NCBI RefSeq assembly: GCF_008087625.1
Contig: NZ_CP042997.1
Location: forward strand, 7,316,001 to 7,380,000
DNA length: 64,000 nt
Direction: 5' to 3'
Source of the DNA: Aquisphaera giovannonii
GTDB taxonomy: Bacteria > Planctomycetota > Planctomycetia > Isosphaerales > Isosphaeraceae
The notes under the pieces were generated by a model. The model searched no databases and was not told where the DNA came from. It worked only from the letters and a program-made list of their open reading frames with translations. Every line of letters starts with the position of its first letter. The first letter of the stretch is position 1. Shown piece by piece: positions 3 through 11,696 of the stretch. A program made the position numbers and the translations under genes.

Positions 3-1904
3 AAGCTCACCTTCGCCAAGGCCGAACACCTGAAGCGGAATGCAACCAAGGCGCCCGACCCCCGGGCCATCTTCACGGCCATGCGTGGCGTCTTCAATGA
101 CTTCACGAGCGAGGTGAACCGGTCGATCGGGTTCTACTCGAGCATCAACCGGACGGCCAAGATCCGCAAGGTGATCGGCCTGGGTAACGGCTTCAAGCTG
201 CCCGGCCTGCAGAAGTTCCTCCAGCAGAACCTCAGCAGCGAGGTGGAGAAGGTCGACGCCTTCACGCGGCTGGCCGGCGACGAGGTGAAGGCCGCGCCGC
301 AGTTCCAGGAGAACCTCGCCTCGTTCGCCGTCGCGTATGGCCTGGGCGTGCAGGGCCTGGGGAAGGCGAACCTGAGCACCAACCTGCTGCCGCCCGAGAT
401 CGAGCGGGTGCGCCTGATCCGGGCCAAGAAACCGTGGGCCCTGGCCGCGTCCTCGCTCGTGATGCTCGGGCTCGGCTCGCTGTTCATCCTGGGGCCGTAT
501 CGGATCCTGGCCAGCGTCTCGACGCCCCAGTACAAGGCGGCCGTGGACAAGGCCAAGACCGTCACGAAGCGGGGCAACGACCTGAAGTCGGCCTACGAGA
601 AGGCCAAGGGGGAGTGGAAGGCCAAGTTCGACGAGGGCAAGGCGCTGGTCATCGACCCCAACTCCCGAGGCCTCTGGCCGGCCTTCCTCAAGACGTTCAG
701 CGAGTTCGTCTACGACCCCCTCAAGGACGTCTACAACCTCAACCCGGACAACCCGGCCGACCAGGAGACCCTGGACAAGCTCCGCGTGCACATCGACGTC
801 ATCCGCCCCGTTTGGCGGGAGGACGTGGCCGCCGATTGGTTCAACGAGATCGATCCCAAGTTCAAGAGGCTGATGCACCCGTATGACGCGGCCAATCCGC
901 CCTCGGGCAAGGGCTGGATCATCCAGGTCGTCGGCCACCACTACAACCCGTATCCCTCCGCCGATCAGCTCAAGATCGTGGACCTCAGGGATCCGCGGCG
1001 GGTGGAGTTCGGCCCCTATCAGTTCATCACCGAGAAGATCCTCCACAGCCTGAACTCGCTCGACTTCCGCCTCTTCGGCGTCACCCACGTGGCCCTCGCC
1101 TGGATGATGTCCGACCGGGAATGGACCAGCGAGAAGGGGAGCGCGACGAATAACCTGGCCAGCAACACCGTGCCCCTGCTCCCGCCGGCCACCGCCCCCG
1201 AGGGCACCGAGTCGGGCGGGGCGGGCGGCATGATGGGCGGCGGGCCCATGGGGAGTGCCTACGGCTCCAGGGGCGGCATGATGGCCGGCGGCCCCGGCGG
1301 GGGCGCCTACGGCAAGGGCGGCATGATGGGCGGCGGCCCCATGGGGGGCGCCTACGGCAAGGGCGGCATGATGGGCGGCGGGCCCATGGGGGGAGCCTAC
1401 GGCGGCATGATGGGCGCCGGCCGGGGGATGATGGGCGTCGGCTACGGCGGACAGGGAGGAGGCGCCGACCTGAAGAAGAGCCTCAAGACCCTCACCAGGA
1501 CCGATTTCCTGATCCAGTTCCTCTGGACGCCGGTGATCCCCGAGACCCTGCCCGACGATCCCGAGCAGCGCAAGGCGAAGCTCGAGGAGCAGGCCGCGAA
1601 GATCAAGGATCAGGTCAAGGACATGATGGAGAAGATGACGGCCGCGGAGAAGGAGAAGGACAGTGCGGCCGTGAAGATCCCCAGCATGGAGGAGATCGAG
1701 GCCGCCTCCAAGAAGAAGTCCTCCGAGGTGGACACGGCTATCAGCAACGCCGTGTCGAAGCTGGCCGCCCCGGGTGCGCCGGGTGCGCCGGGCACGCCGG
1801 GGGCCCCGGCCGCAGCGGCTCCGGGCGCACCGGCCGCGGGGACGTCGGGTGCCACGCCCGCGGGCACGCCGGCCACCCCGCCCGCCTCGCCGCCCAATCA
1901 GTGA
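3..1904 (+). CDS. PilM-PilN-like pilus assembly fusion protein, 5' truncated
   Basis: The open frame enters from the left edge, so the true start is outside the window; an internal ATG at 81 is not the natural start. The first ~130 visible codons look like the C-terminal actin-like lobe of PilM (a GNGFKLPGLQKFLQQNL stretch, then VEKVDAF). A hydrophobic segment follows at about 432-500 (WALAASSLVMLGLGSLFIL) and then a charged, probably coiled-coil region, the layout of PilN. I infer a PilM-PilN fusion: cytoplasmic ATPase-like lobe plus inner-membrane anchor. The rest is unusual: a Gly/Met/Tyr-rich repeat block at 1222-1470 built on GGMMGGGPMGGAYG and an Ala/Pro/Gly tail. It is first in a co-directional run ending at the terminator at 6020-6050. 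The PilM/PilN call is fairly safe; the function of the repeats is unknown. Confidence 0.75.
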   Translation, partial: KLTFAKAEHLKRNATKAPDPRAIFTAMRGVFNDFTSEVNRSIGFYSSINRTAKIRKVIGLGNGFKLPGLQKFLQQNLSSEVEKVDAFTRLAGDEVKAAPQFQENLASFAVAYGLGVQGLGKANLSTNLLPPEIERVRLIRAKKPWALAASSLVMLGLGSLFILGPYRILASVSTPQYKAAVDKAKTVTKRGNDLKSAYEKAKGEWKAKFDEGKALVIDPNSRGLWPAFLKTFSEFVYDPLKDVYNLNPDNPADQETLDKLRVHIDVIRPVWREDVAADWFNEIDPKFKRLMHPYDAANPPSGKGWIIQVVGHHYNPYPSADQLKIVDLRDPRRVEFGPYQFITEKILHSLNSLDFRLFGVTHVALAWMMSDREWTSEKGSATNNLASNTVPLLPPATAPEGTESGGAGGMMGGGPMGSAYGSRGGMMAGGPGGGAYGKGGMMGGGPMGGAYGKGGMMGGGPMGGAYGGMMGAGRGMMGVGYGGQGGGADLKKSLKTLTRTDFLIQFLWTPVIPETLPDDPEQRKAKLEEQAAKIKDQVKDMMEKMTAAEKEKDSAAVKIPSMEEIEAASKKKSSEVDTAISNAVSKLAAPGAPGAPGTPGAPAAAAPGAPAAGTSGATPAGTPATPPASPPNQ

Positions 1905-2042
1905 CCTCCGCCATCGAGGCCCACGCGCCAGGCCCGGCACCCTCACCCAGGGTCGGGCCCGGCGCCGGCCAGCCACGCTCCGACACCGTGCCCCCGGGAC
2001 GCAAGACACCGCACGACCGATCTAGACGAGGCGTGAACGACC

Positions 2043-3839
2043 ATGGATCAAGTCAAGGAATTCCTCCGGCAGTGCGTGAAATACCGCTTCTGGATCTCCG
2101 TATGCACCGCGGCCCTCTTCGCCGTGATCGCCTATTTCCTCGGCGCGGGGCCCGTGCAGAAGAAGGCCGATGATGAGATCAAGTCCATCACCGATGCCAA
2201 CAAGGGGGTCGAGCCGTTCAAGGCGCCCGGCGTCCCCAACCAGGACTACACGAAGCTGGTGGACGAGAAGACCGCCGTCGTGAGCAAGGACGTCGACACG
2301 GCCTGGAGGGACCTGTACAAGCGCCAGGCTCCGCTGCTCAACTGGCCGGAGCAGGTCGACAAGCGGTTCCGCGAGTGGGGCCGCCAGTGGCCCGAGAAGG
2401 TCGCCCCCAGCGCGGTTTCGGTGGCGATCGTCGATTACATCGAGGCCTACCCCAGCTACGTGGATAACGTCTACAAGGTCATCAACCCGTTCGACTACGA
2501 GACCGGGCAGGGCGTGATCGCCGCGCCGCCGAAGGAGCAGCTCCTCCAGCCGGTCCCGTTCGACGTCAACGCCCTCCCGGACCTCGGCAAGGTCTGGGCG
2601 GCCCAGGAGCGGCTCTGGGTCCAGCGATCGGTCCTTGAGGTCGTCCGCGAGGTCAACAAGAAGGCGAAGGACTGGGACTCGGCGATCATCAAGCAGATCA
2701 ACTTCCTCACCGTCGGCAGCGCGGAGGCCCAGGACCAGAAGTCCCAGGCGCAGGCCGAGACCCTGACCGAGTCCGAGGCCATCCACGCCCCCGGCGAGGA
2801 GACCGAGGAGGAGTCCTCCGGCGGTGGTAGTGCCACTGGCGCACCGTCGACGGGCGACTCCATGCGGGCCATGATGGGAGGCCGCGGGGGGATGATGGCA
2901 GGCGGCGGCGGGATGATGGGGGGCGGGGGTGCCGTGCCCGAGACCATCTCCTATATCAAGCCCGAGAAAGGTGCTTACAAAATACTCCCCGTCCTCCTCT
3001 CCGTGCTCATCGACCAGGATCACATCCAGGACCTGCTCGTCGATCTCGAGAACTCCCCCATGGCGATCCAGGTGATGGACTTCACCCTGGAACGGCCCTC
3101 GTCCCGCGTGACCAAGCCCGAGAAGGGCGAGAACATGATGGGCGGCATGATGGGCGGAATGATGGGCGGGATGATGGGCGGCTACATGAACAGGGGCGGC
3201 GCCGAGTACATGATGCGGGGGATGATGGGCGGCCGAGGGAGCATGATGGGCTACGGCGGCATGGCCTCCCAGATGCAAGGGATGATGGGCGGCGGGCCGA
3301 TGGGGGGCGCCTACGGGGCCGGTTATGGCGGGGGCTATGGCGGCATGGGCGGCGCGGCCGCGGAGCGCAAGGGGACCGACAAGCGCTCCAGCGACCGCAG
3401 CAAGACCCGCGAGGAGGCCACGAAGAAGGTCGAGTCCAGCAAGGGCGTCAGCCTCTTCGACCCCTACTACGACATCGTCGAGCTGAAGGTGTACGGCCAG
3501 GCCCGCTTCTACGACGCGCCGCCTGCCCAGGCCCCCGCCGAGACCAGCCCCGGCGAGCAGCCCGAGGCGGGCCAGCCCGCCGAGGCTCCCAAGCCCGCCG
3601 AGGCATCCAAGCCCGCCGAGGCGCCGAAGGCCGATCAACCCGCCGAGGCCCCCAAGCCCGCGGACGCGTCGAAGCCTGCGGACGCCCCCAAGGCCGACCA
3701 GGCCAAGACGGCCGAGCCGGCCAAGGCCGAAGCCTCCAAGCCCGCGGGGGCCGCCGAGCCCGCCAAGCCCGATGGCGGCAAGCCTGCCGAGCCGTCGAAG
3801 CCGCAGGATGCGCCGAAGGAGAAGGCGCCCGGGGCCTGA
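2043..3839 (+). CDS. Single-pass inner-membrane protein of the pilus operon (PilO-position), Gly/Met-rich
   Basis: A 598-residue protein with a short cytoplasmic N-terminus and one hydrophobic segment at about residues 14-34 (YRFWISVCTAALFAVIAYFL), then a large probably periplasmic part. That topology and the position directly after the PilM-PilN-like gene suggest a PilO-like role, but I do not recognise a PilO domain by sequence, so this is inference from context. Two Gly/Met-rich blocks lie at about residues 273-297 and 364-440 (repeats of GGMMGG and a GGGPMGGAYG unit shared with the preceding protein). The C-terminal ~105 residues are a low-complexity Ala/Pro/Lys/Glu string (PAEAPKPAEASK type). 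It starts 138 bp after the upstream stop and ends 80 bp before the next gene, consistent with one transcript. Confidence 0.7.
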   Translation: MDQVKEFLRQCVKYRFWISVCTAALFAVIAYFLGAGPVQKKADDEIKSITDANKGVEPFKAPGVPNQDYTKLVDEKTAVVSKDVDTAWRDLYKRQAPLLNWPEQVDKRFREWGRQWPEKVAPSAVSVAIVDYIEAYPSYVDNVYKVINPFDYETGQGVIAAPPKEQLLQPVPFDVNALPDLGKVWAAQERLWVQRSVLEVVREVNKKAKDWDSAIIKQINFLTVGSAEAQDQKSQAQAETLTESEAIHAPGEETEEESSGGGSATGAPSTGDSMRAMMGGRGGMMAGGGGMMGGGGAVPETISYIKPEKGAYKILPVLLSVLIDQDHIQDLLVDLENSPMAIQVMDFTLERPSSRVTKPEKGENMMGGMMGGMMGGMMGGYMNRGGAEYMMRGMMGGRGSMMGYGGMASQMQGMMGGGPMGGAYGAGYGGGYGGMGGAAAERKGTDKRSSDRSKTREEATKKVESSKGVSLFDPYYDIVELKVYGQARFYDAPPAQAPAETSPGEQPEAGQPAEAPKPAEASKPAEAPKADQPAEAPKPADASKPADAPKADQAKTAEPAKAEASKPAGAAEPAKPDGGKPAEPSKPQDAPKEKAPGA

Positions 3840-3919
3840 GGCCCCCGGCGCCCCTCCCATCGCGCGAATCCACCTCGTCAGTCCGCTGAGAGCCGAACAT
3901 ATTTGCAGGAGATCACCGC

Positions 3920-5986
3920 ATGGCCCATCCCATGGTCGAGAAGCTGAAGGACGCCGGCCTGCGATACGGCGACAAGGCCGCCGTCGCCATCGGCTCGCTC
4001 TTGTTCGTCGTCTGCCTCGGCCTGGCCCTCCGCCAGAAATCCACCGACCTCACGCCCGACCAGATCAAGAAGACGGCCGAGGCGGCGGAGACGAACATCA
4101 ATCGCAAGCAGGACGTGGAGACGATCAACTCCGCGCTCCTCGCCGCCGACATCAAGCCGACCAACTTCACCAAGGAAGTCGAGGACTCGGTCAAGACCGT
4201 CCTCGTCGCGGACAACTACAAGCCCAATCGCGAGTGGGTCATCCCCGAGCCGGGCGCCGGGCTGATCCGGGACACCCCCACCCTGATCGCGCCCTTCGAG
4301 CTCTACGCGTATGCGAGCCGCGGCGGCGCGCTCGTCTACGAGCTGGACGAGAACGGCAACAAGGTGGTGGACACCGGGAAGAAGGAGGCGCCGAAGGAGA
4401 GGCCCGGGCGCAGGCGTCGCAGGCAGGGCGGCGGCATGGGCGGCATGGGCGGCATGATGGGCGGCGGGCAGCGTAGGAATCGCGGCAGCCGCAAGAGCCA
4501 GGCCGAGATCGAGCGCGAGCAGCAGAAGGATTACGAGGCGAGGAAGAAGGAGGTCGCCTCCAAGCTCGTGGGCAGCGACCAGGCCGACCCGGCCGACGAG
4601 AAGGCGAAGGCGGATAAGGAGCCCAACGGCCCGCAGGAGCAGTACAAGGAGATCACCCAGGGCCTCCGCTGGGTGGCCATCACGGGCAAGTTGGACCACG
4701 GCAAGCTCGTGGCGAATTACAAGGAGGCGTTGAAGAGCCCGGGCGCCCAGCCCTACTACGCGCGACTCGACCTCGAGAGGCAGACGCTCGAGGACGGCAC
4801 CTGGACGGGATGGGAGGCCGTGGACGCCGACGACAACAACAAGATCCTCGACAATCTCCCGGAGGAGGACGAGGAGCTAGCCCCCGAGAACGTCCTCCCG
4901 CCCGGCCTCGTGAATCCGCTCCCGTTCCTCAAGCAGGGGCTGTGGGAGAAGGTCCACATCGCCAGCCTCGTGCCCAAGGAGAAGAAAGAAGTTGCACCGC
5001 CCCCGCCGGTCGGCGGCCAGGGGATGGGCGGCATGATGAGCGGCTACCCCGGCACGGGCAGCATGATGAGCGGCATGCGGGGCGGCATGGGCGGGATGAT
5101 GGGCGGCTACGGCGGTATGATGGCCGGAGGGAGTGAACGTGGCGGTATGAGCATGAAAGGCGGCATGGGTAGCATGATGGCCGGCATGCGCGGCGGCGGC
5201 ATGGGCGGCATGATGGGCGGTTACGGCGGCGGCGGCGCGGCGGACATCGAGAGCGACTGGAAGAGCGACGAGAAGACCGTCATGATCCGCGGCCTCGACT
5301 TCACCGCCAAGCCCGACTCGCAGTATCGCTACCGCGTCCGTATCGTCGTGTTCAACCCGAACGTCAACCGGGACGACGTCAGCCCCGGCGTGGACAAGAA
5401 GTCCACCTACCTCTTCGGCCCCTGGAGCCAGCCGACCGACGTGGTCACCATGCCGCCGGACGTTTCGCCGTACGCGATGGGCACCCTCGCGGCGGGTCCC
5501 CGGTCCGACATCAAGGTGAACTTCCAGGTCGTCCGCTTCGACAAGGCGGACGGGGTCACCGTCCCGCACCGCTTCGCGGCGAGCCCCGGCGAGGTGATCG
5601 GCGACGTCAGCTCCGTGGACATCCCGACCTCCGAGGGGACGGGGGCCAAGTCCAAGAGGATCGACTTCAACACCCACTCCATCGTCCTCGACACGTCGGG
5701 CGGCCTGCAATCGCTCCCCGCGGGGTTCAGCGGCGGCGGGGTGGAGAAGCCGGCCCTGGCCCTCGTGCTCCGCAGCGACGGCAGCGTCGCGGCGCGTGCC
5801 CAGTTCGACGACGAGAATGACGAACTGCGGAAGGACGTCGAGCGGAACTACGCACGCGAGGTCAAGGACTCGAACAAGAAGCGACAGAACTCCGCGGGCT
5901 CCGGCTACGGCGGCATGATGGGCGGCTACGGCGGCATGATGGGCGGCGGCGGTCCCATGGGAGGGGCATACGGCGGCATGCGCTGA
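3920..5986 (+). CDS. Single-pass inner-membrane protein of the pilus operon, Gly/Met-rich
   Basis: A 688-residue protein that starts after a good ribosome site (AGGAG, 8 nt before the ATG). A hydrophobic segment sits at about residues 20-37 (AAVAIGSLLFVVCLGLAL) after a short cytoplasmic N-terminus. The periplasmic part holds three Gly/Met-rich blocks, at about residues 171-187, 367-440 and 667-687. Between them is a folded-looking stretch near residues 455-520 with alternating hydrophobics (QYRYRVRIVVFNPNVN), possibly a beta-sandwich. I recognise no named domain. It is the last gene before the intrinsic terminator at 6020-6050 and sits between pilus-like genes and the secretin, where pilP-type genes usually lie, so a link between inner-membrane platform and secretin is plausible but unproven. 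Confidence 0.7.
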   Translation: MAHPMVEKLKDAGLRYGDKAAVAIGSLLFVVCLGLALRQKSTDLTPDQIKKTAEAAETNINRKQDVETINSALLAADIKPTNFTKEVEDSVKTVLVADNYKPNREWVIPEPGAGLIRDTPTLIAPFELYAYASRGGALVYELDENGNKVVDTGKKEAPKERPGRRRRRQGGGMGGMGGMMGGGQRRNRGSRKSQAEIEREQQKDYEARKKEVASKLVGSDQADPADEKAKADKEPNGPQEQYKEITQGLRWVAITGKLDHGKLVANYKEALKSPGAQPYYARLDLERQTLEDGTWTGWEAVDADDNNKILDNLPEEDEELAPENVLPPGLVNPLPFLKQGLWEKVHIASLVPKEKKEVAPPPPVGGQGMGGMMSGYPGTGSMMSGMRGGMGGMMGGYGGMMAGGSERGGMSMKGGMGSMMAGMRGGGMGGMMGGYGGGGAADIESDWKSDEKTVMIRGLDFTAKPDSQYRYRVRIVVFNPNVNRDDVSPGVDKKSTYLFGPWSQPTDVVTMPPDVSPYAMGTLAAGPRSDIKVNFQVVRFDKADGVTVPHRFAASPGEVIGDVSSVDIPTSEGTGAKSKRIDFNTHSIVLDTSGGLQSLPAGFSGGGVEKPALALVLRSDGSVAARAQFDDENDELRKDVERNYAREVKDSNKKRQNSAGSGYGGMMGGYGGMMGGGGPMGGAYGGMR

Positions 5987-6019
5987 GCCTCCATCGATCA
6001 CCGCCCGGCCCGATGACGG

Positions 6020-6050
6020 ACCCCCATCCTCGCGATGGGGGTTCTTTTTT
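6020..6050 (+). terminator. Rho-independent terminator after the pilus inner-membrane genes
   Basis: A perfect 9-bp stem, ACCCCCATC (6020-6028) and GATGGGGGT (6034-6042), with a 5-nt loop, followed by TCTTTTTT. It lies 33 bp after the stop of the preceding gene and is the clearest intrinsic terminator in the window. It separates the inner-membrane genes from the secretin. Confidence 0.85.
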
Positions 6051-9300: not shown

Positions 9301-10761
9301 CAGGACATCTCGGCGAACTACGGGCTCGGCGGCGGCTTCGGCGGCGGCGGCGGCCTCGGCGGCGCCGACGACTCCCGGCCCCCCGGGGCGATCATCCCCT
9401 TCTACCTGAGCATCAGCCTGATCATCCGGCACACGGCCGAGGTGCACGAGCAGATCGCCGACCTGCTCCGCCAGCTCCGCCGCCTGCAGGACCTCCAGGT
9501 GTCCATCGAGGTCCGGTTCATCACGGTCACGGATAACTTCTTCGAGCAGATCGGCGTCGACTTCGACTTCTCGATCCAGTCGGATTCGGTCGGCAAGAAG
9601 AGCACCTGGGCCATCCCCAACTCGGCGGCCCAGATCATCCCCGTGCCCGGCACGCCCGGCAACGGGACCGGGACGACCGGCGGCGGGATCGGCGGCACCG
9701 GCGGCGGCGTCGGCGGGACCGGCGGGACGACCGGCGGCGGCGTCGGAGGCACCGGCGGCGGCACGACCGGCGGGATCGGCGGCGGCGGCGGCGGGATCGG
9801 CGGCGGCGGCGGCGGCCTCGGCGGCGGCGGCGGCGGCCTCGGCGGCGGTGCCGGCGGCGGCCTCGGCGGCGGTGCCGGCGGCGGCCTCGGCGGCGGCGGC
9901 GGCACGACCGGCGGCTCCACCGCGCAGTATCTCGTCAACCCGTTCCGCGACCACGCCCTGGGCAGCAAGCTGCCGATCACGGTGGGCACGCAGGGCGGCG
10001 GCCTCTACAACTTCTCCAACAACCTCCAGATCCCGTTCACGAACACCAGCGGCAGCCTGATCGCCCCGACCAACGCCGTCGCCGGCGCCGGTGCGACCCT
10101 GGGCCTCGCGTTCCTGAGCGACCTCGAGGTGTACTTCTTCCTCACCGCGGCGCAGGGGGACACCCGCACGAACGTGCTCCAGGCCCCGAAGGTGACGACG
10201 TTCAACGGTGCCATCGCCACCATCCTGAACGCCGAGCTGCAGTACTACATCGCGGCCCTGACGCCCGTGGTCGGGCCCGGCTCGGTGGCCTTCCTGCCGC
10301 AGCCGCAGGCGTTGCTCAACGGCGTGTTCCTGTCGGTCACGCCGGTCGTCTCCGCCGACCGCAGGTACGTCCGGATGACGCTGTCGCCGAACTTCCAGAC
10401 GGTCGATGGCTTCACCACCATCCAGGTCCCGGCGGCGGTCGGCGGTGCCGGCCTGGGCGGCAGCTCGGCGGCGATCAACGCCACGATCCAGCTCCCCCAG
10501 ACGAACACGACCACGGTCTCGACCACGGTCACCGTCCCCGACGGCGGCACGGTCCTGCTCGGCGGCGTGAAGCGGCTGAACGAGGAGCGCCGCGAGTTCG
10601 GCGTGCCGGTCCTCTCCAAGACCCCCTGGATCGACCGCCTCTTCCGCAACGTGGGCATCGGCCGCATCAGCAGCAGCCTGATGCTGATGGTCACGCCGCG
10701 GATCATCATCATCGAGGAGGAGGAGGAGAAGCTGGGCATCCCGTCCACCGCGACGTTCTGA
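6394..10761 (+). CDS. Giant secretin (PilQ/GspD family) with TPR-like N-terminal region
   Basis: The outer-membrane channel of a type IV pilus or type II secretion machine. I chose the TTG at 6394 because AAAGGAGG lies 5 nt upstream and the protein then opens with a signal peptide (MGRLRSLTVILIFGSMGAATEGA); the frame is open further upstream but without signal or ribosome site. At 1455 residues it is about twice the usual secretin length. Residues ~30-760 are Ala/Lys/Glu-rich with TPR-like helical hairpins (EARALYASGNYPAARQLAEEA, AQAAYAAGNLNEAETYAKRA). Residues ~795-870 match a secretin N0/STN-like domain (FEQRPLSEAITFIQNYTGLN). The secretin core follows and ends with VPVLSKTPWIDRLFRN (~residue 1404), the conserved secretin motif. 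A glycine-rich insert (~1093-1176) interrupts the core. Probably the partner of the upstream inner-membrane proteins. Confidence 0.88.
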   Translation: MGRLRSLTVILIFGSMGAATEGAFPGDAAPSPAASARRPAPVPPIKYLEAGARLYNSGDFDRAAKYLDAARLYRDELQSDEQATLDAYLKELAKVQGAASTAPAPAADPGVTKAAMPAPTAASPAPVGDVRSAGTDEPAIADPKQRARWLLHEAREQIAAGNPAGAEAKIAEAEAVDVKWGLFDDTPAKVRKDLKREFPNAASADVGKAAPSQPGDHKTAVAQLREARAALAKHQVDQAESIAAQVKGWNLSYGLFEDNPDKVIAAAHALRKRDRMRNVPAKELASTGVYDVLVQESRQLLKLGKLEEASAKAKQAQRMNVTPSLTADRAESVLFDIAEADARRKKAVASKSPAATMDPAVRQVSGESAGAPLLAAPDQDPAPAAAPAELVPADQPVADATKAEAPKVAAAPQPAPADAMPALDDQPHAAEPVAAAPAAGHASKGEQMLAEARALYASGNYPAARQLAEEAKAGKAGVDSQADELLAQVGMAEQRGAFTLYESALSAMRNGDNARARALLNEVASAGASLDENLRTKVEELLKKIPAADKANAPSGRAVVGDKAPIPDAEALAAQKLNAEVGTKIAEARRLQEIDPDKSIALYEQTMKAVKASGLSNSLTKPMVRRLEVALELARKDKVAFDVKMKDKSAKADIELKRLRYLEADNAKKARMKELMDKAQAAYAAGNLNEAETYAKRAGEIDPNEVAATMMAYKARMERRYKQDLDTRAAKENGAVTAFQEVDLASVADPEVQLNGIKYAKNFKDLTRERLRMNQKLEVKKDPKVLAIEAKLREPISMNFEQRPLSEAITFIQNYTGLNVVLDPKALSDEGLTSAAPVSLTVNNVSLKTALKLMLRPLGLVHKVDDEVLLITSPQATPNQMYAQTYYVGDLIMPASKAGDGQFTGALTTADNQSTQLLSSSTSGVVQGNGTDVSGVKKGERPNVDMTPLIQLISTSIAPGTWQVQNQAGQDISANYGLGGGFGGGGGLGGADDSRPPGAIIPFYLSISLIIRHTAEVHEQIADLLRQLRRLQDLQVSIEVRFITVTDNFFEQIGVDFDFSIQSDSVGKKSTWAIPNSAAQIIPVPGTPGNGTGTTGGGIGGTGGGVGGTGGTTGGGVGGTGGGTTGGIGGGGGGIGGGGGGLGGGGGGLGGGAGGGLGGGAGGGLGGGGGTTGGSTAQYLVNPFRDHALGSKLPITVGTQGGGLYNFSNNLQIPFTNTSGSLIAPTNAVAGAGATLGLAFLSDLEVYFFLTAAQGDTRTNVLQAPKVTTFNGAIATILNAELQYYIAALTPVVGPGSVAFLPQPQALLNGVFLSVTPVVSADRRYVRMTLSPNFQTVDGFTTIQVPAAVGGAGLGGSSAAINATIQLPQTNTTTVSTTVTVPDGGTVLLGGVKRLNEERREFGVPVLSKTPWIDRLFRNVGIGRISSSLMLMVTPRIIIIEEEEEKLGIPSTATF

Positions 10762-10991: not shown

Positions 10992-11696
10992 ATGCCCCAC
11001 CTGCTTCCGCTCGCAATGGCCGCCCTGCTGGCGGCCCAGTCCGCGCCCGCGAGGCCCGACGCGGCGAAGGCCGGCCCGCCCCGGGAGCCCGACCCGGCGT
11101 GGAAGCCCCTGGCCCGCAGCCTCTGGTTCGACCCGTCCGCAAAGCAGCTCATCATCCGCGCCAAGGTCGTGCTGCGCGAGGGGCCGCTCGAGCACCTCAT
11201 GTGCCTGAAGGGCACCAAGGAGCACGAGGCGATCCTCGCCACCGACGCCCCTCCGCGTCAGATTCACGCCGGCCTCCTCCTGACCGGCGCGGAGGAAGGC
11301 CATCCCGTCCGCTTCCTCCCCAAGTTCGAGCCGCCGGCGGGGACCGCCATCGCGATCGAACTGCAATTCGCGGCGGGGGGTGAGGCGAAGAAGGTGGATG
11401 CCCGCACCTGGCTCAAGGACTCTCGGGGCAAGAAGGACTTGCAGGAACGCTGGGTCTTCGCCGGGAGCGAGGTCTACACCGACCCGATCACCAAGCAGAA
11501 GATGTACGCCGCCGACGAAGGCGACCTCATCACCGTCGCCAACTTCGGCGGCGCCATCCTCGACCTGCCGATCGCCAGCTCCGCCAGCAATGAAGAGCGA
11601 GTCTTCCTCGCGGACACGGATCACATCCCTCCGCTGGGGACCGAGGTCTTCCTCTTCCTCAAGCCGGCGGCGGGAGGGAAATCGGGCAAACGCTGA
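10992..11696 (+). CDS. Exported YdjY-domain-like protein
   Basis: A 234-residue protein. The ATG at 10992 is preferred over the open frame from 10794 because it starts with a convincing signal peptide (MPHLLPLAMAALLAAQSAPA) and has GAGGTG a few bases upstream. The mature part contains the run VVLREGPLEHLMCLKGTKEHEAIL, which I recognise as the conserved core of planctomycete YdjY-domain proteins; the biochemical role of that family is not known. It ends with a Lys/Gly-rich tail. It follows the secretin by 230 bp, with a strong hairpin between, so it is probably a separate unit. Cell location should be periplasmic or attached to the envelope. Confidence 0.72.
   Translation: MPHLLPLAMAALLAAQSAPARPDAAKAGPPREPDPAWKPLARSLWFDPSAKQLIIRAKVVLREGPLEHLMCLKGTKEHEAILATDAPPRQIHAGLLLTGAEEGHPVRFLPKFEPPAGTAIAIELQFAAGGEAKKVDARTWLKDSRGKKDLQERWVFAGSEVYTDPITKQKMYAADEGDLITVANFGGAILDLPIASSASNEERVFLADTDHIPPLGTEVFLFLKPAAGGKSGKR

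Follow-up and report, generated by a model that had tools for sequence, protein, structure and literature searches.

Why should three consecutive genes of one pilus machine all encode the same unusual kind of low-complexity segment? The question is raised by a locus at the start of a 64,000-nucleotide stretch of Aquisphaera giovannonii DNA (the window; contig NZ_CP042997.1, positions 7,316,001 to 7,380,000), taken from a genome of 10.5 Mb with about 70% G+C. The products of the three genes, named P1, P2 and P3 here, belong to a type IV pilus platform of the Planctomycetes-Verrucomicrobia-Chlamydiae (PVC) type and carry blocks rich in Gly and Met. Based on the comparison of orthologous operons, these blocks appear to be a conserved addition to a machine of known kind and not an accident of slippage.

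The Gly/Met-rich blocks and their conservation

Six Gly/Met-rich blocks, 355 aa together, were located at bases 1194-5983, one in P1, two in P2 and three in P3. The GGMMGG motif was present in three, four and five copies in P1, P2 and P3, and GPMGGAYG in two, one and one, respectively, and both motifs were absent from all of the 500 shuffles made of each protein. The preliminary description had reported Gly/Met-rich repeats in three adjacent pilus-platform proteins, and these are indeed present at the place given and beyond the shuffled expectation. It was right on the region they cover, but their extent within it needed correction, as P2 has two blocks, P3 has three and P1 begins upstream of the window. 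The proteome-wide block rate was judged from a DNA pattern search of the whole genome together with a 400-kb genome sample. Twelve of the 19 exact GGMMGG matches in DNA lay inside the 5-kb stretch of P1-P3 (a reversed-pattern control gave 0), the 400-kb sample had such blocks at a single other locus, where two exported proteins are encoded in tandem, and no further Met/Gly block was present elsewhere in the window.

Orthologues were sampled from 33 genomes of the family, the Isosphaeraceae (32 besides that of A. giovannonii), and from 11 genomes that belong to other families within the class. Inside the family, blocks were found at the same position in 28 of 29 P1, 29 of 30 P2 and 33 of 33 P3 orthologues, as compared to 1 of 11, 1 of 10 and 2 of 11 outside it, where one genome of another family (G041, locus L066) has blocks in P1 and P3 only. 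The only block-less P1 of the family (G010, L047, minus strand, around position 11596) is a frameshifted gene that still encodes an intact block in the other reading frame; the frameshift cleanly separates the PilM part from the membrane helix and is either an assembly error or a true split gene. Outside the family there are loops at the same sites, but these are rich in Gly, Pro, Ala and Ser, and Met makes up a median of 0-6% of a loop, as compared to 11-26% inside the family. The loop sites are therefore older, and the Met enrichment is mainly a family trait. Absence of the blocks from close relatives, which the preliminary description had tied to recent slippage without function, was not seen, the blocks being kept at the same positions family-wide. 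Such slippage was rejected as the sole cause because the blocks are found throughout the family with diverse Gly codons.

A rival explanation is tolerated low-complexity drift, in which surface loops were filled by slippage and by copying between the genes, and the Met/Gly composition is a functionless accident of the family. The widely variable loop lengths, the four tandem copies of a 45-bp unit within the P1 block and the different composition of the loops in other families all fit such drift. On the other hand, a residue with one codon, such as Met, should be lost fastest if it were neutral, yet Met makes up 16-31% of the blocks in every genome, while Leu, Ile, Val and Phe together stay below 7% in each. 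Family-wide, Gly accounts for 38% and Met for 24.6% of the block residues, and the sum of Leu, Ile, Val and Phe is about 2%. The Gly codons have not been homogenised either: their third-base diversity is 0.58 within the blocks and 0.61 outside, and the blocks are therefore not fresh expansions. The adjoining secretin gene, P4, encodes a Gly-rich loop at the same locus, and this loop has no Met in all 11 genomes in which it was found, so that a regional mutational bias was ruled out. Taken together, the retention of Met, the rarity of Leu, Ile, Val and Phe, the varied Gly codons and the Met-free secretin loop point to protein-level selection for Met in the blocks. This apparent selection for Met is in line with the preliminary description.

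Copying between the genes was the other source invoked by the drift explanation. The P1, P2 and P3 blocks share more k-mers within than between genomes, and none of 5000 permutations reached the observed mean; the genome's own partner block was the best k-mer match in just 2-11 of 27 genomes. Clear DNA copying was seen in two of the 27 genomes, with 59 identical nt between P1 and P2 at L039 and 45 nt between P1 and P2 at L063, each exceeding all 100 synonymous shuffles, and these two cases count in favour of drift. The other 25 genomes, which count against it, had no clear excess over synonymous-codon shuffles, and DNA copying was dismissed as the main source of motif sharing. Gene conversion is therefore occasional, and the remaining likeness of the blocks lies at the protein level, through selection or through older events erased by codon change. 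Part of the motif sharing, which the preliminary description had taken to reflect a common property, stems from DNA copied from one of the genes to another, in at least two genomes. We regard drift as an unlikely explanation of the blocks as a whole.

The blocks are not special to pilus proteins, since they were found again in a few other exported proteins. The other GGMMGG sites of the genome lie in an exported protein with two long GMG blocks, an alpha-2-macroglobulin, two VWA proteins, a sialate-esterase-like protein and an extracytoplasmic function (ECF) sigma factor, with one further site at L083, and the GGMMGG proteins of relatives include secretin paralogues and an HlyD-type protein. 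Because these sites fall in proteins of extracytoplasmic type, Met/Gly disorder seems to be an envelope habit of the lineage, which is densest in the pilus platform. The exported protein belongs to a family with no Pfam or NCBIfam match, two long GMG-rich blocks and often a tandem gene pair (L080:409-2022 on the minus strand, L086, L087, L088 and L100). The ECF sigma factor (L074:6130-8265; G000:C1, about 10198129-10200264) has a C-terminal extension past its membrane helix which resembles the middle of P3 and bears its own Met/Gly block; such a second strong match to P3 occurred only in the A. giovannonii genome among the genomes searched with P3. L092, L093 and L095 encode paralogous secretin-type proteins with TPR and STN domains, in which a GGGMGGGMGG block stands directly behind the STN domain.

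The platform that carries the blocks

P1, P2 and P3 are consecutive on the forward strand, and a strong intrinsic terminator at 6018-6050 (RNA folding energy -31.8 kcal/mol, z -4.25) closes the unit before the secretin gene P4, also on the forward strand. The same set of genes is known from Amuc_1098-1102 of Akkermansia muciniphila, a pilus-like cluster of PVC type (PMC5332112; PMC13174399). P1 (865 aa, bases 1-1904 of the window) starts about 690 bases upstream, and just its C-terminal two thirds are included. It is a PilM-type protein with a membrane helix (residues 378-396) and a periplasmic PilN-like part. The full gene passed the cut-off of PF11104 (124.8 bits against 27) and P1 that of TIGR01175 (PilM; 165.5 bits against 133), and its profile matched solved PilM structures. 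It stayed below the cut-off of 650 for the Amuc_1101 equivalog NF045709, with 218.3 bits for its own N-terminal 398 aa and 216.6 bits for the full-length G002 orthologue, and is thus a relative and not the equivalog. Its single block spans residues 630-721 (1194-1469). P1 is the only PilM in the genome. Against this single PilM stand about 98 prepilin-type N-methylation signals and 12 matches to T2SSE-type ATPases, of which 11 pass the cut-off, which makes one platform for very many pilin-like proteins.

P2 (598 aa, 2043-3839) is an inner-membrane protein similar to PilO and Amuc_1100. Its AlphaFold2 (AF2) model has a transmembrane helix, a coiled coil and a split ferredoxin-like periplasmic domain, which is the Amuc_1100/PilO-like fold. 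The top nine Foldseek rows were all Amuc_1100, with weak E values, and the VIA comparison with Amuc_1100 gave Z 10.3-11.4 and a root-mean-square deviation of 3.5-6.0 over 162-176 residues, as compared to Z 5-6.6 for PilO structures. The Amuc_1100 family NF038287 gave no match to P2 itself and weak matches to 2 of 39 orthologues (best E 0.16), none reaching the cut-off. The first block of P2 (residues 269-303, 2847-2951) is in a loop joining two strands in the split ferredoxin-like domain, and the second (residues 356-433, 3108-3341) lies between the strand of residues 341-350 and the last strand, 478-490.

P3 (688 aa, 3920-5986) is an inner-membrane protein with a transmembrane helix and, in its AF2 model, FN3-like sandwiches, with VIA matches to FN3 domains at Z 7-8.6, and its position in the operon agrees with that of Amuc_1099. 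The Amuc_1099 family NF042425 did not match P3 itself and matched one of 45 orthologues at E 0.036, below the cut-off. Its blocks comprise residues 161-192 with Arg-rich flanks (4400-4495), residues 363-446 separating two folded parts (5006-5257) and a C-terminal tail, residues 655-688 (5882-5983). The third protein had earlier been compared with PilP, and nothing points to this: no PilP was among the matches listed for P3 in the Pfam, NCBIfam, profile and fold searches, although the two may be distantly related. As a lipoprotein, PilP binds the secretin through a small beta-sandwich domain; P3 has the transmembrane helix and FN3-like folds described above. Profiles of P2 and P3 against PDB sequences returned nothing useful, and P3 had no match among plasmids.

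P4 (6274-10761) is a secretin similar to PilQ and Amuc_1098, with a TPR part. It passed PF00263 (87.5 bits against 27.5, E 1e-24) and stayed under the cut-offs of PilQ TIGR02515 (95.5 against 284 bits) and of the Amuc_1098 family NF042912. Its Met-free Gly-rich loop (window 9677-9903) is of the GGIGGTGGG type with tandem 21-bp units; the make-up of this loop differs among genera and in some the loop is missing. As the gene order 1101-1100-1099-1098 is kept, the operon is a PVC-type type IV pilus platform as in Akkermansia. The blocks therefore sit where the preliminary description had put them, in the assembly platform of a system like that of type IV pili, with P1 as its PilM and P2 as its Amuc_1100/PilO-like protein. 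The long antisense open reading frames over P1-P3 are as expected from coding DNA of 68-70% G+C.

Possible roles of the blocks

P1, P2 and P3 each have a transmembrane helix, and every block is C-terminal to it; the blocks are presumably periplasmic. Those of P2 and P3 coincide with stretches of the AF2 models in which the predicted local distance difference test (pLDDT) is below 50, between or after confident domains, and are predicted to be disordered. The reading that we put forward, at slightly less than even confidence, is that the blocks are disordered periplasmic insertions in three alignment proteins of the machine and act as flexible, weakly adhesive tethers. Gly would give flexibility and Met would offer soft, promiscuous hydrophobic contacts, as in the Gly/Met tails of GroEL or in abductin; the blocks could then help to keep P1, P2 and P3 together, while the complex would yield as the pilus works across a wide and variable periplasm. 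Planctomycete crateriform complexes join both membranes and bear pili-like fibres (PMC5394234), and they would be a place where flexible linkers make sense.

Several points weigh against such tethers. The low pLDDT may partly stem from unalignable rows, and these loops are retained in other families in a form free of Met, which is therefore dispensable for the basic machine. Similar blocks turn up in a few unrelated exported proteins, which speaks for a property of the envelope in general and less for one of the pilus, and the specificity for Met suits redox or metal roles equally.

In the redox explanation, Met absorbs periplasmic oxidants, or the formation of sulfoxide alters the stickiness of the loops, as in yeast Pbp1, in which a Met-rich low-complexity region self-associates and senses oxidation (PMC8394241). 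Besides this precedent, the specific requirement for Met, for which other hydrophobic residues do not substitute, would be accounted for, and the A. giovannonii genome encodes MsrP (460.7 bits against a cut-off of 207). MsrP was searched for in all genomes and MsrA in that of A. giovannonii; MsrP exceeded the cut-off in 6 of 37 family genomes and in 4 of 22 outside, and therefore it does not track the blocks and was rejected as their partner. We consider a redox sink or switch quite improbable.

Phase separation, raised in the preliminary description, would mean that the loops, being multivalent and present on all three partners, draw the platform proteins together into envelope clusters. Their low complexity, their presence in all three partners and the Met-rich condensate of Pbp1 speak for such phase separation, but aromatic residues are scarce in them (Tyr 1.5%, Phe 0.6%, Trp 0.1%) and P1, P2 and P3 are all anchored in the membrane, which leaves it a small chance. 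Binding of Cu(I) or Ag(I) by thioether clusters is less probable still: Met pairs at distances 1, 3 and 4, spacings known from some copper Met motifs, are enriched, but the distance of 2 (MxM) is depleted (z -12.5), Cys is missing from the blocks and His all but missing, copper genes were not seen next to the operon, and the other proteins with such blocks, taken as a group, are not metal proteins.

Returning to adhesive tethers, a bolder form of the idea, which we offer as a long shot, is that the family evolved a Met-based adhesive or elastic periplasmic mesh. Matching loops on the three partners would bind each other, and the platform would become a stretchable, possibly oxidation-tunable connector between the membranes, for example in crateriform structures. 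If true, Met-rich disorder would be used here in a way that has not been described for the envelope machines of bacteria, and our literature searches found no publications on planctomycete Met-rich pilus proteins. The apparent Met-specific selection on disordered loops common to three partners of a pilus or secretion platform matters in a phylum with poorly understood pili, crateriform structures and a wide periplasm. If the loops are adhesive or elastic, they would parallel GroEL tails and abductin in the bacterial envelope, and would give experimental access to the question of how a type IV machine deals with an inter-membrane gap of variable width.

Comparison with known systems

The blocks resemble the Gly/Met segments of GroEL tails and abductin in composition only, together with low pLDDT. 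The Gly/Met tails of GroEL populate polyproline-II and may contact clients (PMC12571646). Like the blocks, the GroEL/Hsp60 tails are short, disordered and Gly/Met-rich, but they are cytoplasmic and of about 19 residues, whereas the blocks are periplasmic internal loops of 20-90 residues in which MM doublets are frequent. Abductin is the elastic protein of the bivalve hinge, with Gly/Met-rich random-coil repeats of the consensus GGFGGMGGGX (PMC13052691). The Gly/Met-rich repeats are common to both, but the blocks are nearly Phe-free, rich in MM doublets and short insertions in folded proteins instead of a bulk elastomer, and no homology is implied. Pbp1 likewise has a Met-rich low-complexity segment, but it is a cytoplasmic, eukaryotic protein.

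As compared to the PilM/PilN/PilO complex of type IVa pili, P1 also combines PilM with a membrane helix and a periplasmic part, and P2 matches PilO structures. The platform differs in the fusion of PilM to a PilN-like part in P1, in the six Met/Gly insertions and in that no PilP-like protein was identified. In the Akkermansia cluster, PilM 1101, PilO-like 1100, 1099 and secretin 1098 form the same set in identical order, and P2 folds like Amuc_1100. As compared to the Akkermansia proteins, P2 and P3 are of considerably greater length, and they bear Met/Gly blocks in a scan that covered planctomycete proteins; by sequence, P2 and P3 are only marginally similar to the NCBIfam models, and P1 and P4 stay below the equivalog cut-offs. 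Gene order and the fold of P2 tie the planctomycete pilus genes to the Amuc_1098-1101 cluster, and the blocks are a family-wide, apparently selected variation on this machine.

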